Origin: Marinobacter guineae
GTDB lineage: Bacteria; Pseudomonadota; Gammaproteobacteria; Pseudomonadales; Oleiphilaceae
Direction: 5' to 3'
DNA: 64,000 nucleotides
Assembly (NCBI RefSeq): GCF_002744735.1
Contig: NZ_KZ319340.1
Span: 1 to 64,000, forward strand
Below are positions 25,172-31,751 of this stretch, one piece after another. The stretch's first letter is position 1; each line of letters opens with the position of its first letter. The notes beneath the pieces are model-generated. The model did no database searches. It was not told where the DNA came from and saw only the letters and a list, made by a program, of their open reading frames with translations. The position numbers were made by a program, and so were the translations under genes.

Positions 25172-25348
25172 ATGTATATCTACCGTCTGGTTTTCCTGTT
25201 GGTACTGGCCATCTATATTTTTTCACCCAACATCCTCGACTGGTGGACTTCGCCGGGAAATGCCTGGTATAGCCCTTATATTATCTGGGCCGGGCTGATT
25301 GCCATCGGTTTCTGGCTGGAATGGCGGCGGGACCCCAATGAGTTTTAG
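25172..25348 (+). CDS. Small two-helix membrane protein overlapping cbrA (CbrX-like)
   Basis: 58 aa, not long enough to be picked up by ordinary ORF cut-offs. Two hydrophobic helices (YRLVFLLVLAIYIFS and YIIWAGLIAIGFWLEW) flank a Trp-rich loop, ending in WRRDPNEF. Its last 11 nt overlap the cbrA start, so the two are almost certainly translationally coupled. Pseudomonas has a small hydrophobic ORF, cbrX, in the same place ahead of cbrA; equivalence here is by position and character, not alignment. Confidence 0.75.
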   Translation: MYIYRLVFLLVLAIYIFSPNILDWWTSPGNAWYSPYIIWAGLIAIGFWLEWRRDPNEF

Positions 25349-28301
25349 TGCCTCGGGCCTGCTGTTTGCCAGCCTGTTCTATCTGATCCTGCTATTCGGT
25401 ATTGCCTGGGTCACCGAGCGCGGAATGCTGCCGCGGCAATGGGTCCGCCATCCGCTCGTTTACGTCCTCAGCCTGGGCGTTTACGCGGGCATCTGGGCGG
25501 TTTACGGTGCCGTTGGCATGGCGGCGGAATCCGGCTACGGCTTCCTGGCCTACTATCTGGGCATCAGTGGGGCTTTCCTGCTGGCGCCCGTGCTCCTGAA
25601 CCCGGTCATGCGGATCGGTCGCGCCTACCAGTTGACTTCCCTCGCAGACCTGTTTGCCTACCGCTACCGCAGCCAGTGGGCGGGCACCCTCGTCACCCTG
25701 TGCTCCGGCGGTGCCATCCTTGCCCTGCTGAGCATGCAGATTCAGGCCGTGGCCACCTCTGCCAGCATTCTGGCACCCGATACCTCGCCCAAGCTGATCA
25801 GTGTGATGTTCAGCTTGATTGTGGTGCTGTTCGCCATGCTGTTCGGAGCTCGCCGTGATCAGAACTCCGAGAACCATCAGGGCCTGGTACTGGCCATCGC
25901 TTTCGATTCCCTGATCAAACTGGTGGCGTTACTGGTGCTAGGGGGTGTCATTCTGTTCGGGGTATTCGATGGCATGGGCGGCCTGGACCACTGGCTCGAC
26001 AACAGATCCTCTGCGGCTGCCACCATGACCCTGAGCATTGACGACGGCAGCTGGCGGGCACTGATGCTCATGTCGTTTGCGGGGGCACTGGTGCTTCCGC
26101 ACATGTACCACATGACCTTCAGTGAAAACCCCTCCCCCAAGGCCCTGGCGAAGGCCAGCTGGGGCCTGCCGCTTTACCTGTTGCTGCTTGGCCTGCCGGT
26201 CCCCCTTATTCTGTGGGGCGGTCAGGAACTTGCGGTGACAACAGGGCCAGGATTCTTCGCCATTGGCGCCGCTCAGGCCCTGGGCAGCCCCGCGCTCACA
26301 CTGCTGATGTACATTGCCGGCCTGTCAGCGGCCAGCGGCCTGATGATCGTCAGCACACTGGCACTGGCGGGCATGGCCCTGAACCACGTGGTGCTGCCGC
26401 TGAAAACCCCGAAAGACCAGGGTGACATCTATCGCTGGCTCCAGTGGATCAAACGACTGCTGATCGCCGTAATCATTTTCCTGGCCTTGCTGTTTCACGA
26501 GACCATCGGCAAAAATCTTGATCTGTCCATTCTCGGTGCTATTTCGCTGTCCGGTACCCTCCAATTGCTTCCCGGGGCCCTTGGCGTGATTTACTGGCCA
26601 GAAGGCAACCGACGAGGCCTGATCGCCGGCCTGCTTGTCGGGCTGGCAATCTGGGTAACCACCCTGGTCCTGCCCTTCTCTCATACCGCCAACTTGCTGG
26701 CCTGGCTGGACGCCCCGCTGATTCCGGATTACAGCAACTGGCATATCTTCACCTTCGTGAGCCTGACGGCCAATATCACCGTCTTCGCCCTCATCTCAGT
26801 ACTGAGCACCAGCACCAGCGAGGAGGCGAGTGCGGCCCAGGCCTGCTCATTGGGCGCCCTCTCCCGGCCCCAGCGCCGTGAACTTCTGGCCACATCCTCC
26901 AGCGATTTCGTCCGGCAACTGGCGGAGCCCCTCGGTTATGGAGTGGCCCGACGGGAAGTGGAGCGGGCGCTCACCCAGCTGAAACTGCCGAACGTGGAGT
27001 ACCGCCCCTACCAGCTCAGGCGCCTGCGAGACCAGGTTGAAATCAACCTTTCCGGCCTGCTCGGGCCTGCCGTTGCCCGGGACATGGTCAAGCGTCACTT
27101 GGGCTTCAAACCCATGGCCCAGGGCGGCACTGCCCAGGACATCCGGTATGTTGAGCGCGCCCTCGGCGATTACCAGAATCGGCTGACCGGGCTGGCCGGA
27201 GAACTCGACAACCTGCGCCGGCATTACCGGCAGACCTTGCAGAACCTGCCCATTCCAGCCTGTTCGGTGGGCGAAGATGGCGAAATCCTGATGTGGAATC
27301 ACACCATGGAGGAGCTCACTGGTATTACGGCCGACGACGTAGTCGGTGCCCGGCTGATGGCATTGCCAGAACATTGGCACTTGCTGCTGGAGGATTTCAA
27401 TAGGGGTGAAGACCTTCACCGCTACAAACACCGGCTGGACCTGCGCGGCAAGCCGCACTGGCTGAACCTGCACAAGGCCGCCCTGAGCGGGCCGGATCAC
27501 ACCGAAGGCGGCAGCATCATACTGGTCGAAGACCAGACTGAAACACGACTGCTTGAGGACGAACTGATGCACAGCGAACGCCTGGCCTCGGTGGGCCGGC
27601 TGGCAGCGGGCGTTGCCCATGAAATCGGCAATCCGGTCACCGGCATTTCCTCACTGGCCCAGAACCTGAAGCTGGAAACAGACAACCCGGATATTCTGGA
27701 TACGGCTGAACAGATCCAGCAACAGACCCGGCGCATTTCAGCCATCCTTCAATCGCTCATGAACTTCGCCCGGACCGGCAATCACGCCCAGGCAAACCGG
27801 TACGAGCCTGTGACAATACATCGGTGTGTCGAGGAATCCATCAACCTGCTGTCACTCAGTGACAAGGGGTTGGGCATCCATTACATCAATGACTGCCCAC
27901 CTTCGCTGCAGATCCTCGGGGATGAACAACGTCTGGTTCAGGTGTTCGTCAACCTGTTGGCCAACGCCCGCGACGCATCCCCTGAAGGTGGCACCATCCG
28001 GATCAGTGGAAAAGGTGACGGCTACTCCGCTATTATCGAGGTCACCGATGAGGGCTCCGGCATCCCCGGAGACCAGCTTGATCATATCTTTGAGCCGTTT
28101 TACACCACCAAGGCACCTAATAAAGGTACCGGCCTTGGCTTATCGCTGGTGTATAGCATTATTGAAGAACACTACGGCAACATTCAGGTTGAGAGCCCTG
28201 CAAATGCAGAAACCGGCAGGGGCACCTGCGTACGGCTGAGATTGCCAGCCTACGAATCCGAAATCGGCAACACCGCCATCAGCCAGAACCAAAGGTCTTG
28301 A
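25338..28301 (+). CDS. cbrA: Sensor histidine kinase CbrA with transporter-like domain
   Basis: 987 aa hybrid. The N-terminal half (about 1-500) has about 13 membrane helices of the sodium/solute symporter type. A PAS domain (about 620-740; YRQTLQNLPIPACSVGEDGE) follows, then HisKA with phospho-acceptor H761 in GVAHEIGNPVTG, and HATPase with NLLANARDAS, DEGSGIPGD and GTGLGLSL. Start ATG 25338 lies inside the end of the small upstream ORF. Pseudomonas CbrA controls carbon/nitrogen balance and histidine uptake; the response regulator follows 7 nt downstream. Confidence 0.94.
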   Translation: MSFSASGLLFASLFYLILLFGIAWVTERGMLPRQWVRHPLVYVLSLGVYAGIWAVYGAVGMAAESGYGFLAYYLGISGAFLLAPVLLNPVMRIGRAYQLTSLADLFAYRYRSQWAGTLVTLCSGGAILALLSMQIQAVATSASILAPDTSPKLISVMFSLIVVLFAMLFGARRDQNSENHQGLVLAIAFDSLIKLVALLVLGGVILFGVFDGMGGLDHWLDNRSSAAATMTLSIDDGSWRALMLMSFAGALVLPHMYHMTFSENPSPKALAKASWGLPLYLLLLGLPVPLILWGGQELAVTTGPGFFAIGAAQALGSPALTLLMYIAGLSAASGLMIVSTLALAGMALNHVVLPLKTPKDQGDIYRWLQWIKRLLIAVIIFLALLFHETIGKNLDLSILGAISLSGTLQLLPGALGVIYWPEGNRRGLIAGLLVGLAIWVTTLVLPFSHTANLLAWLDAPLIPDYSNWHIFTFVSLTANITVFALISVLSTSTSEEASAAQACSLGALSRPQRRELLATSSSDFVRQLAEPLGYGVARREVERALTQLKLPNVEYRPYQLRRLRDQVEINLSGLLGPAVARDMVKRHLGFKPMAQGGTAQDIRYVERALGDYQNRLTGLAGELDNLRRHYRQTLQNLPIPACSVGEDGEILMWNHTMEELTGITADDVVGARLMALPEHWHLLLEDFNRGEDLHRYKHRLDLRGKPHWLNLHKAALSGPDHTEGGSIILVEDQTETRLLEDELMHSERLASVGRLAAGVAHEIGNPVTGISSLAQNLKLETDNPDILDTAEQIQQQTRRISAILQSLMNFARTGNHAQANRYEPVTIHRCVEESINLLSLSDKGLGIHYINDCPPSLQILGDEQRLVQVFVNLLANARDASPEGGTIRISGKGDGYSAIIEVTDEGSGIPGDQLDHIFEPFYTTKAPNKGTGLGLSLVYSIIEEHYGNIQVESPANAETGRGTCVRLRLPAYESEIGNTAISQNQRS

Positions 28302-28308
28302 GACTGTT

Positions 28309-29712
28309 ATGCCTCGAATTCTGATCGTGGAAGACGAAGACATTATTCGCTCAGCAGTACGCAAGCTGCTGCAGCATGCCGGCTATGAAGTCGCCGATGC
28401 CTCATCCGTCGAAGAAGCCGAGCAGAACCACGAACCGGACCAGTTTGACCTGATCATCTCCGATCTTCGCCTGCCTGGTGCTGCCGGCACCGAGCTGATC
28501 AACCGGGCGCCGAACACCCCGGTGCTGATCATGACCAGTTACGCCAGCCTGCGCTCGGCCGTGGATTCCATGAAAATGGGCGCCGTTGAATACATCGCCA
28601 AACCGTTCGACCACGACGAAATGCTGGCTGCCGTAGAGAACATTCTGGCTCGAAAACCGTCTGCCCAGAACACCGTCGATGAAGCCACTGCCAGTGCGGA
28701 AATACCCGAAAGCAGCGACCCCGCCAACATCATGTTCGGCGATTGCGAACCCATGCAGCGGGTGTTTACCCTGATCCGCAAGGTTGCGCCCACAGAAACC
28801 ACCGTGCTGATCCAGGGCGAATCCGGTACCGGTAAGGAATTGGCCGCCCGCGCCCTTCACCTGATGAGCCCGCGCGCCACCAAGCCGCTGATTTCAGTAA
28901 ATTGTGCTGCGATTCCCGAAAGTCTGATTGAATCGGAACTGTTCGGCCACGAGAAGGGCGCCTTCACTGGTGCTGTTTCCGCGAGGACGGGCCTGATCGA
29001 AGCCGCCGATGGTGGCAGCCTGTTCCTGGATGAAATCGGTGAATTGCCCGCAGAAGCTCAGGCCCGCCTGCTACGGGTGCTCCAGGAGGGCGAAATCCGC
29101 AAGGTTGGCTCCACCCAGAGCAGAAAGGTGAACGTGCGGATGATCGCGGCTACCCACCGAAACCTTAAAGCCATGACACGCACTGGCGAATTCCGGGAAG
29201 ACCTTTACTACCGGCTGAATGTCATGCAGGTCCGGATTCCTCCGTTACGGGAACGTCAGAGCGACATTCTGGGACTGGCTCGCCGCTTCCTGAAGCGTCA
29301 GGGGGAGAAAATGGGCAAACCCAACCTCAACCTAAGCCCTGAGGCTATGCGGGTTCTCGAACGCCACCGCTGGCCCGGTAACGTGCGGGAGCTGGAAAAT
29401 GCCATTGAGCGGGCCACCATCCTTTGTGATGGCGATGTTATTACCCCGGCGCTACTGGACCTCGACAGTGAAGGTGGCGACGAGTACATCCCGGAATCTC
29501 TGGTAGAAGGCAATAATGAGCAGACCCGGACCCGGGAAGCAGACTCCGCTAACGATCTTTCCCTGGAAGACTACTTCCAGCACTTTGTTCTCGAGAATCA
29601 GGACCGCATGAGCGAGACCGAGTTGGCCCAGAAACTGGGCATCAGCCGGAAATCCCTGTGGGAACGTCGCCAGCGCCTTGGGATCCCGCGGAAAAAATCC
29701 TCAGGCAACTGA
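28309..29712 (+). CDS. cbrB: Sigma-54-dependent response regulator CbrB
   Basis: 467 aa NtrC-family activator. Receiver domain with phospho-acceptor D52 (LIISDLRLPG), AAA+ domain with Walker A GESGTGKE (170-177) and the sigma-54 contact loop GAFTGA (217-222), and a C-terminal Fis-type helix-turn-helix (about 430-467, ELAQKLGISRKSLWERRQRL). It follows cbrA by 7 nt. Its likely binding sites and a sigma-54 promoter lie directly downstream, driving the CrcZ-like RNA. Confidence 0.95.
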   Translation: MPRILIVEDEDIIRSAVRKLLQHAGYEVADASSVEEAEQNHEPDQFDLIISDLRLPGAAGTELINRAPNTPVLIMTSYASLRSAVDSMKMGAVEYIAKPFDHDEMLAAVENILARKPSAQNTVDEATASAEIPESSDPANIMFGDCEPMQRVFTLIRKVAPTETTVLIQGESGTGKELAARALHLMSPRATKPLISVNCAAIPESLIESELFGHEKGAFTGAVSARTGLIEAADGGSLFLDEIGELPAEAQARLLRVLQEGEIRKVGSTQSRKVNVRMIAATHRNLKAMTRTGEFREDLYYRLNVMQVRIPPLRERQSDILGLARRFLKRQGEKMGKPNLNLSPEAMRVLERHRWPGNVRELENAIERATILCDGDVITPALLDLDSEGGDEYIPESLVEGNNEQTRTREADSANDLSLEDYFQHFVLENQDRMSETELAQKLGISRKSLWERRQRLGIPRKKSSGN

Positions 29713-29741
29713 AACTGGCATAGTGTGAACGGAAGCTCAGT

Positions 29742-29768
29742 TGTTACCCTTTGTTCCTCTCGGTAACA
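29742..29768 (+). promoter_or_regulatory. CbrB-type upstream activating site, palindromic
   Basis: TGTTAC (29742-29747) and GTAACA (29763-29768) form a perfect inverted pair with 15 nt between, the layout described for CbrB sites in Pseudomonas. It is about 105 nt upstream of the sigma-54 promoter, a typical enhancer distance. Confidence 0.72.
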
Positions 29769-29780
29769 CTCTCTCCAAGA

Positions 29781-29827
29781 GTAACGTGATCTCAGTAACA
29801 CTTACGTCGGATACGGGGTAACACTTA
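29781..29827 (+). promoter_or_regulatory. Additional GTAAC half-sites upstream of crcZ
   Basis: GTAAC recurs at 29781, 29795 and 29818; the latter two extend to the identical GTAACACTTA, 23 nt apart (two helical turns). ACTTAC-N12-GTAACA (29800-29823) is a degenerate second palindrome. Together with the palindrome at 29742 this makes a cluster of activator sites before the promoter. Confidence 0.6.
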
Positions 29828-29874
29828 TGGCCTAAAAAATCGTAAGACATTGTTAATACAGAAAATTAAAAACC

Positions 29875-29890
29875 TGGCACACGGACTGCA
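29875..29890 (+). promoter_or_regulatory. Sigma-54 promoter of the CrcZ-like RNA
   Basis: TGGCAC-N5-CTGCA with exactly 10 nt between the GG (29876-29877) and GC (29888-29889) doublets, the -24/-12 signature. Transcription would begin about 12 nt later, near 29901. A sigma-54 activator, CbrB, is encoded just upstream. Confidence 0.82.
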
Positions 29891-29900
29891 ACCTATTTAG

Positions 29901-30289
29901 CGCACAACAACAAAAACAAGAGTGACAAAGCAGCGCCACAACAAAAACAAAAAGCTGCGGGAAAACGTTCGGTAACAAAAACAAAAACAGAACGTGAGCG
30001 AACTGAGTGTTTTGGGTACTTTGCTTTTTAGTGGTCCCACGGCACGTGCGAGTTGTAGATGTAGAGAAGAATTGCCTTAGAGGTGACGCTGCAGCTACTC
30101 CAAACCCGCCCGATGTCTCTGACCGCTCTGTGTATTCAAAGCTTTCCGTTTGCACTGTTGATATGCCCCAGACTTGGGGATAGACAGTGGGGTACAAAAA
30201 CCAAGAAAAATCCCGGTAAAAACAAAAACAATGCAGATCGTCAACGCTTTGAGGGCGGATTCGTGTAAACGGATCCGCCTTTTGATTTT
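29901..30289 (+). ncRNA. crcZ: CrcZ-type regulatory RNA (Hfq/Crc decoy)
   Basis: About 390 nt between cbrB and pcnB, with no convincing ORF. Five A-rich motifs of the AAnAAnAA class are visible: 29903-29919, 29937-29954, 29974-29989, 30194-30210 and 30217-30233, mostly ACAACAA or AACAAAAACAA. The 5' end GCACAACAACAAAAACAAG closely resembles the start of Pseudomonas CrcZ as I remember it. It is preceded by a sigma-54 promoter and activator sites and ends in a strong terminator. Pseudomonas CrcZ (about 400 nt, same locus, five such motifs) titrates Hfq/Crc from target mRNAs when poor carbon sources activate CbrAB. Location, promoter, motif number and length all agree. Confidence 0.85.
30254..30289 (+). 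terminator. Rho-independent terminator of the CrcZ-like RNA
   Basis: GGCGGAT (30254-30260) pairs with ATCCGCC (30273-30279), extended by four inner pairs (one G-T), loop GTAA, then TTTTGATTTT. It ends about 95 nt before pcnB. Confidence 0.85.
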
Positions 30290-30383
30290 CTGGGCACCGG
30301 AACTGTAATCCACGGCAAACATGTGCAAATCCTGCTCAAACCGTTAAACTCTCGGTTTTTGCTCATCGCAACCACGGATTTCA

Positions 30384-31751
30384 ATGCCAAAACGACTCGT
30401 CGATAAACTCCGTTCATTCATGTCCGGCAACGGAAAAAAGAAGGCCCGAACCTACCAGCGACGGGAAATTCCCCGGGACCAGCATAACGTCTCCCGCTCG
30501 GTAATCAGTGAGCCCGCCAAAAAGGTTCTCCATCGCCTGAACAAATCAGGCTATGAAGCATACCTTGTGGGCGGCGGCGTCAGAGACATCCTGCTGGGTG
30601 GAAAGCCCAAGGATTTCGACATCGCAACCAACGCCACGCCGGAAGAAGTCCACGATCTGTTTCGCAACTCCAGGCTGATCGGCCGCCGGTTCAGAATTGT
30701 TCATGTGGTGTTTGGCCGGGAAGTCATCGAGGTGACCACCTTCCGGGGCAACGCCACAGAAACCGATACCGACGCCGATGATGACGACCGCAGAACCAGC
30801 GAACATGGACTACTGCTCCGGGACAATGTCTACGGCAATCAGGAAGAAGATGCCCTGCGCCGGGACTTTACGGTAAATGCCCTGTACTACTGCATTCGCG
30901 ACTTCTCCATCATTGATTTCGCCAACGGCATGGAAGATTTGCGTAATCGGCAACTTCGCCTGATTGGTGACCCGGAGACCCGCTACCGGGAAGATCCCGT
31001 GCGCATGCTCCGGGCCATCCGATTTGCCGCCAAACTCGGCTTTGATATTGAACCGGAAACCGAGGCCCCGATAAAAGATCTGGCCCCGTTACTGAGCCAT
31101 ATCCCTTCGGCCCGACTGTTCGATGAAGTGCTCAAGCTCTTTTCCGCTGGCCACGGCGAGGCCACCTACAACCTGTTAACCCGTTACAGCCTGCTTGAGC
31201 CACTGTTTCCGGAAACCGTCAGGGCCATCGAGGCCGGTGAACCGGATGAACTGATCCGCCAGGCGCTCAGGAACACCGACGCCCGTATTGCCCAGGGCAA
31301 ATCGGTCACGCCCTACTTCCTGTTTGCCGCCATGCTCTGGCCGGCACTTCAGGCAGAATGGCATCGCAGACAAGACAATGGCGACCCGGTTCAACCCGCT
31401 CTGCACGGAGCCATCGGCAAGGTGATTGGCCGGCAGGTGCAGGCGACGTCGATTCCCAAACGCTTCTCGGGACCCATGAAAGAAATCTGGGAACTTCAGA
31501 TGCGCTTGCCTCGCCGCCAGGGCAAGAGAGCCTTTGTCACCATGTCTCATCCACGGTTCCGGGCGGCCTATGATTTTCTGTTGGTCCGTGAGGATTCTGG
31601 CGAGATTGAACCGGGCCTGGGCCAATGGTGGACCGAGTTCCAGCAAGCGGATGAGCGACGCCAGGAGCGAATGCTGTCCGAACTGGCCAGCGACGCGCCC
31701 AAAAAGCGCAAGCGCCGCCGCAAACCGGCTCAGAAACCAACTCAGCAATGA
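30384..31751 (+). CDS. pcnB: Poly(A) polymerase I
   Basis: Adds poly(A) tails that speed RNA decay. It is 455 aa with the nucleotidyltransferase signature VGGGVRDILLGGKPKDFDIATNATPEEV (about 56-84), the following RRFRIVHV and DPVRMLRAIRFAAKLGF segments, and a very basic C-terminal tail (KKRKRRRKP) for RNA binding. The stop overlaps the folK start. Lying after the CrcZ-like RNA and before folK-panBC mirrors Pseudomonas. Confidence 0.96.
   Translation: MPKRLVDKLRSFMSGNGKKKARTYQRREIPRDQHNVSRSVISEPAKKVLHRLNKSGYEAYLVGGGVRDILLGGKPKDFDIATNATPEEVHDLFRNSRLIGRRFRIVHVVFGREVIEVTTFRGNATETDTDADDDDRRTSEHGLLLRDNVYGNQEEDALRRDFTVNALYYCIRDFSIIDFANGMEDLRNRQLRLIGDPETRYREDPVRMLRAIRFAAKLGFDIEPETEAPIKDLAPLLSHIPSARLFDEVLKLFSAGHGEATYNLLTRYSLLEPLFPETVRAIEAGEPDELIRQALRNTDARIAQGKSVTPYFLFAAMLWPALQAEWHRRQDNGDPVQPALHGAIGKVIGRQVQATSIPKRFSGPMKEIWELQMRLPRRQGKRAFVTMSHPRFRAAYDFLLVREDSGEIEPGLGQWWTEFQQADERRQERMLSELASDAPKKRKRRRKPAQKPTQQ

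Follow-up and report, generated by a model that had tools for sequence, protein, structure and literature searches.

A CrcZ-like Hfq/Crc decoy RNA predicted between cbrB and pcnB of Marinobacter guineae appears to be part of a switch common to much of the order Pseudomonadales

Between cbrB and pcnB of Marinobacter guineae lies a gene-free stretch of DNA, at 29901-30289 on the plus strand of the window (the whole 64,000-nucleotide (nt) stretch analysed, contig NZ_KZ319340.1, positions 1 to 64,000). We propose that this is the gene of an RNA of about 390 nt, driven by CbrB and sigma-54, that acts as a decoy for Hfq and Crc and is orthologous to CrcZ of Pseudomonas. Judged from sequence, this reading has a probability of about 0.87. 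An earlier note on this DNA had suggested the same decoy outside the genus where it is usually annotated. The locus, promoter, motifs, fold and partners uphold that suggestion; what changes is its scope, since the case is not one genome and is part of an order-wide pattern. It is likely, in our judgement, that carbon control by CbrAB, a CrcZ-type decoy, Hfq and a catalytically inactive Crc is an ancient module of the entire Pseudomonadales (as genome taxonomy draws the order) and did not originate with the Pseudomonadaceae. The RNA core would have been rebuilt from family to family with promoter, hexamers and A-rich motifs persisting, the RNA would tend to be absent from genomes that lack Crc, and some families would have multiplied it in tandem. 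What was computed here comprises the sites and the fold, the degree of conservation, the synteny, the partner genes and the association with Crc-like proteins.

For transcription, CbrB/RpoN control, Hfq/Crc binding and the carbon signal in Marinobacter, we infer the pathway from work in Pseudomonas and Azotobacter. When preferred carbon is scarce, CbrA would activate CbrB. CbrB would bind a forward-reverse-reverse (F-R-R) set of hexamers and open the sigma-54 promoter, and the transcript would terminate at its own terminator. The conserved fold would hold the A-rich motifs in loops and single strands, where they would bind the Hfq distal face together with Crc. Hfq/Crc would thereby be drawn off catabolic messenger RNAs (mRNAs), which would then be translated.

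The gene order is that described for Pseudomonas crcZ, as the earlier note had stated, with cbrB (28309-29712) upstream and pcnB (30384-31751) downstream, both on the plus strand. The downstream gene matches the NCBIfam pcnB model at 531.7 bits (cut-off 305.65). The upstream gene, a sigma-54-dependent response regulator, resembles cbrB of Pseudomonas loci in place and sequence. One family of the order (f20) was read as Pseudomonadaceae because its best-per-genome scores with the Rfam CrcZ model RF01675, 268-368 bits, far exceed all others. The window CbrB is 61-65% identical to CbrB in 15 of 16 such loci, the 16th having no CbrB match within the stretch compared.

A sigma-54 promoter, TGGCAC-N5-CTGCA (TGGCACACGGACTGCA), lies at 29875-29890 on the plus strand. 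It has the GG-N10-GC spacing and, when the C of GC is counted as -12, predicts the start (+1) at 29901 that the earlier note had given. A scan of the region for sigma-70-type promoters found 0 sites (0.9 expected). Upstream stand the activator sites that had also been noted, and they were compared across 28 Marinobacter-type loci, the window counted among them. TGTTAC (subsite F, 29742-29747, about 133 bp before the sigma-54 site) is kept in 27/28. GTAACA occurs at 29763-29768 (R1, about 112 bp before it, 26/28) and at 29795-29800 (R2, 80 bp before it, 28/28), and an additional GTAACA at 29818-29823 is kept in 17/28. In the accessible part of the CbrB regulon paper (PMC6296734), the subsites are a forward TGTTAC and a reverse GTAACA, 12-16 nt apart; the conserved trio of the window has gaps of 15 and 26 nt, so that the second falls outside that range. 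GTAACG at 29781-29786 was entertained as R2 and dropped after the conservation count. It stands at the same place in just 3/28 loci (the window and two relatives) and is therefore probably not a main activator site.

The predicted RNA carries five clusters of the AAnAAnAA class, the number given in the earlier note, and 0 of 2000 dinucleotide shuffles reach five. Motif 1 (29906-29919) is at the 5' end. Motif 2 (29940-29953) sits in the loop of a GCAGC/GCTGC hairpin (29930-29958) and motif 3 (29974-29987) in that of an ACGTTC/GAACGT hairpin (29965-29995); both hairpins covary, with two-sided changes in 2/5 and 4/6 pairs. An A-poor structured core follows at 29996-30155, consisting of a long closing helix and an inner arm with covariation. 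Motif 4 (30203-30210) forms the loop of a short GGG/CCC stem, and motif 5 (30218-30231) is a further AAnAAnAA cluster. The longer word AAnAAnAAnAA occurs eight times on the plus strand of the 64 kb window and never on the minus strand, and all eight copies are inside the RNA. An intrinsic terminator at 30251-30289, likewise expected from the earlier note, has a 14-pair stem (30251-30282) and a T-rich TGATTTT tail; on both strands of the region three terminator-like sites were found, this one included, against 0.8 expected. With both ends predicted, the RNA would be about 389 nt long, against 390-400 nt for CrcZ, in keeping with the length given before. Five clusters are the rule among the 28 Marinobacter-type RNAs (23), with four clusters in three of them and six in two. 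A stricter A-rich pattern matched nowhere in the genome, the window RNA included, and is hence uninformative.

Folding of the window RNA by itself gave a z of -3.0. In the consensus fold of the 28 RNAs, 24 of 87 pairs show two-sided changes, and 67 cells covary, against 19.6 in shuffles (0/500 reach 67) and at most 17 when partners are slid. The closing helix of the core has 19 pairs, of which 12 are invariant and none has a two-sided change, so that its support is conservation. Averaged by column, identity reaches 0.91 in motifs 1-3, 0.85 in the core and 0.89-0.94 from motif 4 to the terminator. It is 0.70-0.76 over the activator sites and spacer and 0.63 beyond the terminator. Compared with Marinobacter algicola, the block 29851-30293 shows 89% identity and the DNA of cbrB and pcnB 78-79%.

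A covariance search with the Rfam CrcZ model, named in the earlier note as a check, was run permissively over 29700-30400. RF01675 aligned end to end (model positions 1-398 of 398) at 29904-30310, with 52.5 bits and an expectation value (E) of 1.1e-12. Matches below the cut-off were found in 25/25 genomes of the genus, the window's own included, and in 0/14 control genomes. A second copy was found in the genome neither with RF01675 nor with a model of the A-poor core; some Pseudomonadaceae-type genomes give two RF01675 matches. One other Rfam candidate, the ribosomal protein L20 leader (RF00558), was taken as chance; its 24.7 bits, against a cut-off of 58.7, come from the A-rich 3' portion together with the terminator.

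The RNA shares with CrcZ of Pseudomonas, a genus that also has CrcY and CrcX, its place between cbrB and pcnB, the sigma-54 promoter, the F-R-R hexamers, a length of about 390-400 nt, a 5' end ACAACAA and several A-rich motifs, besides the end-to-end model alignment. The two differ in hexamer spacing. In Pseudomonadaceae-type loci the forward hexamer stands 122-125 bp (15/16) and a reverse one 102-104 bp (15/16) before the sigma-54 site. The three hexamers start at about -124/-103/-81 there, against -133/-112/-80 in Marinobacter, where the first two are thus some 9 bp further upstream. CrcZ and CrcY of Azotobacter vinelandii likewise have CbrB-type sites and RpoN-dependent promoters, as described in the accessible part of PMC6292655; that organism belongs to the Pseudomonadaceae and Marinobacter to the Marinobacteraceae. 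In Acinetobacter baumannii, an RNA called sRNA99, with three potential AAN motifs, was compared with CrcZ in a study of Hfq by RNA interaction by ligation and sequencing (RIL-seq; PMC12802169, seen in its accessible part).

Both partner proteins, whose presence the earlier note had asked to see confirmed, are encoded in the genome. Hfq is identical to P. aeruginosa Hfq at 65 of 73 residues (counted on the alignment). Crc (268 aa) is encoded just beyond the window between genes that we named rph and pyrE by reading the protein sequences, and its best PDB match is P. aeruginosa Crc (239 bits). It has lost nuclease residues that are present in the organism's own XthA. The accessible text on the Hfq/Crc/amiE complex (PMC6422490) lists Crc K135, R138, K139, R140 and R141 among the RNA contacts; the protein retains all five, and R196 is K.

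We then looked across the order. RF01675 matched 72 of 390 genomes at E up to 0.001; 19 of these were above the cut-off, all in families f20 and f2. Of the matching genomes, 40 belong neither to f20 nor to the window's genus, and 40 loci were fetched from 38 of them (G068 and G137 omitted, G031 and G037 used twice); pcnB is present in 36 of these loci. A search of 369 genomes of the wider class, at least 5 of them from the order, added four weak matches, all outside the order. A further set was chosen by the position of pcnB, so as to avoid choice by the RNA itself. It holds 56 genomes and represents 40 of the 47 families seen; families f1, f2, f14, f20, f27, f34 and f45, genomes without a PcnB match, and G098, G050 and G233, where pcnB is too near a contig end, were left out of the count. 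The signature was defined as a sigma-54 site followed by two or more AAnAAnAA words ahead of pcnB. It was found in 37/56 genomes (27/40 families), against 6 of 2240 shuffles.

The signature accompanies Crc and CbrB. Genomes with a Crc-like match (threshold about 1e-38, which also admits nuclease-type paralogues) carry it in 34/41 cases and those without one in 3/15; the Fisher value of 2.5e-5, uncorrected for relatedness, is descriptive, because families are not independent draws. With adjacent cbrB the signature is present in 31/39 genomes, without it in 6/17. At least two exact CbrB hexamers lie upstream in 28/28 Marinobacter-type, 16/16 Pseudomonadaceae-type and 52/62 other loci. All these loci bear the signature, and in the last group L105 and L106 belong to the window's own family but to different genera. 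Among letter-shuffled upstream regions the share is 0.7%. Within family f36, two loci without adjacent cbrB (L119, L189) lack the hexamers and two with it (L171, L173) have them. A CbrB-like neighbour (54-55%) with neither Crc-like match nor signature was seen in family f43 (3/3 examined), where it is possibly another NtrC-type protein. Family f18 has the same combination (2/2 examined).

A pattern scan of named genomes, with 80 of 117 stretches examined, supplies examples and no frequency. Among these 80, a CbrB (46% or more) and PcnB stand beside the match in twelve, and one locus (L229), near a stretch end, has CbrB alone. Most of the remaining listed matches look like chance, and some are in Pseudomonas, away from cbrB. 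Among the matches listed, the pattern lies beside cbrB and pcnB in Cellvibrio mixtus, Microbulbifer variabilis, Pseudohaliea rubra, Spongiibacter thalassae and Neomelitea salexigens, and beside pcnB and a weaker CbrB (46%) in Marinomonas colpomeniae. It was also met in M. algicola, M. profundi and Marinobacter sp. F3R11, where CbrB is 84-91% identical to that of the window where covered (residues 391-467 only in F3R11).

To ask whether these RNAs share descent, we took the A-poor core of Marinobacter-type RNAs only, made a covariance model of it and ran this on 86 loci. At E up to 1 it matched 29 loci. Two other genera of the window's family match strongly (E 5e-28 and 3e-23), and one f37 locus and one f2 locus match moderately (E 5.8e-7 and 6.3e-5). 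Taken together, synteny, start site, hexamers and core matches favour descent from a common ancestor, with a core that changes fast; the core evidence is not decisive by itself.

A number of results weigh against the proposal of a CrcZ-orthologous decoy or its order-wide extension. Because the RF01675 score stays under the curated gathering cut-off (95 bits), the RNA does not count as a member of that family as curated, and routine annotation misses it; at gathering level a tRNA is the sole Rfam match in the window. In 57/86 loci the core model finds nothing at E up to 1. It matches Pseudomonadaceae-type crcZ weakly, in 13/16 loci with E 0.011-0.39, the hits lying inside crcZ on the right strand. 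Such hits may partly reflect hairpin shape, because the opposite strand of the window RNA (29996-30155, minus) scores 19.7 bits (E 0.005), in a similar range; that match may be what a long hairpin is expected to give. The slid-partner control somewhat favours the structure, which was derived from the same alignment. M. profundi and F3R11 each gave a single 78% BLAST alignment over RNA and coding DNA, so the contrast between RNA and flanking genes is shown for M. algicola only. Hfq has Phe in place of Tyr at position 25, a residue that presumably has a role on the distal face. Crc is labelled exodeoxyribonuclease III (ExoIII) by NCBIfam (TIGR00633, 171.1 bits, cut-off 99.05) and differs from the P. 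aeruginosa protein at K155 (V), F231 (T) and R233 (E). Seven genomes have a Crc-like match and no signature (L136, L139, L143, L145, L150, L158, L165), and three genomes without such a match carry it. Family f28 is inverted, L143 having a Crc-like match without signature and L170 a signature without Crc-like match. The signature test is strict, and L165 (f7) scored as a miss despite an A-rich RNA with an altered -12 element. At L165:2770-2860 the start of that RNA follows TGGCAT and CbrB-type hexamers, and the GC of the -12 element reads GT.

Could the RNA titrate Hfq alone, with Crc dispensable or otherwise employed? The three signature-bearing genomes without a Crc-like match at the threshold used would fit this, as would the altered dimer-interface residues of Crc, and A-rich motifs are in themselves sites for the Hfq distal face (PMC6422490, accessible part). 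We hold it improbable, for the signature tracks Crc-like proteins across families (34/41 against 3/15). Two of the three exceptions come from a single f17 genus, with assemblies of 170 and 410 contigs that are 96 and 79% complete, and in a second f17 genus two genomes do have a Crc-like match. The basic patch K139-R140-R141 is kept in 19 of 20 Crc-like proteins, fetched from the strongest listed matches, but it is also found in the nuclease-like L317 and so is not diagnostic. Base pairing between the conserved core and target mRNAs, with the A-rich parts merely recruiting Hfq, is likewise doubtful. The strongly conserved core strand GAGCGAACTGAGTGTTTTGG would suit it, and the closing helix without two-sided change could owe its conservation to a cause other than intramolecular pairing. 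The conserved strands, however, are able to pair with each other in 100% of cells, and the core diverges between families whereas motifs and promoter stay.

That the stretch is mainly a processed 3' end of the cbrB transcript, or a cis element before pcnB, is very unlikely given its own sigma-54 promoter and terminator, conserved in the genus; the processed Azotobacter form is, besides, itself reported to be functional. A coding or chance A-rich stretch is hardly credible. The region does hold a 114-codon antisense frame (29853-30197), but a rough frame check found it broken in 26/28 relatives. We rejected its coding potential, no conserved open frame having been seen in the genus, and covariation and shuffles contradict chance.

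Global carbon control through an Hfq/Crc decoy has so far been studied in Pseudomonas and Azotobacter. In the parts of the literature accessible to us, a 2022 review describes CbrAB and the cbrA-cbrB-crcZ arrangement as known only from these two genera (PMC8871633), and a 2018 paper on the CbrB regulon calls CbrAB exclusive of Pseudomonaceae (PMC6296734). Among the papers listed or consulted, mainly open literature, we found no report of CrcZ outside Pseudomonas and Azotobacter, and none on CrcZ in Marinobacter. CbrB and Marinobacter are mentioned together in one community study, whose accessible part does not link the two. The signature across genomes of the order suggests that such exclusivity does not hold. 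Should the decoy operate in Marinobacter, Microbulbifer, Cellvibrio, Spongiibacter and others, the order in which many marine degraders use carbon sources would be expected to depend on it. The many natural variants would allow one to ask what a decoy RNA needs besides A-rich motifs, and such RNAs would be annotated if the Rfam cut-off were lowered or a new model of wider reach were built.

The kinase gene of the window, cbrA, lies at 25299-28301 on the plus strand. PAS, HisKA and HATPase_c domains were detected in its product, and no Pfam family matched the long N-terminal region. Neither this gene nor cbrB reaches the cut-off of any NCBIfam model, so both names rest on place and similarity. 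In the 20 Crc-like proteins, a pyrE-like neighbour lies within the stretch in 18, and the Asp of the nuclease GDxN motif is lost in 17. It is kept in L317, L325 and L327. L317 (f47) and L327 (f13) have nuclease-type residues and no rph or pyrE neighbours, and L325 (f21) has such residues with rph and pyrE adjoining; forms between ExoIII and Crc such as these could be informative.

Some loci depart from the simple arrangement. In L107, L176 and L177 (f38), L180 and L181 (f47) and L134 (f29), the interval from cbrB to pcnB holds a tandem array of two or three sigma-54 sites, each with A-rich motifs after it, which looks like an in-place duplication or triplication of the decoy gene. L169 and L185 (f26), L173 (f36) and L209 (M. 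colpomeniae) have GluQ-like and CbrB-like proteins within about 3.2 kb upstream of pcnB, the order gluQ-cbrB-pcnB being printed for L209 only. This leaves little room for cbrA, and the kinase gene may have been lost or moved. Family f8 shows two arrangements. L093, L094, L095 and L098 have a CrcZ-like signature with CbrB-type hexamers before pcnB and no CbrB in the fetched stretch. L096 and L097 are matched by RF01675 and weakly by the core model, in stretches that yielded neither pcnB nor cbrB, and their RNAs are possibly second decoys like CrcY.
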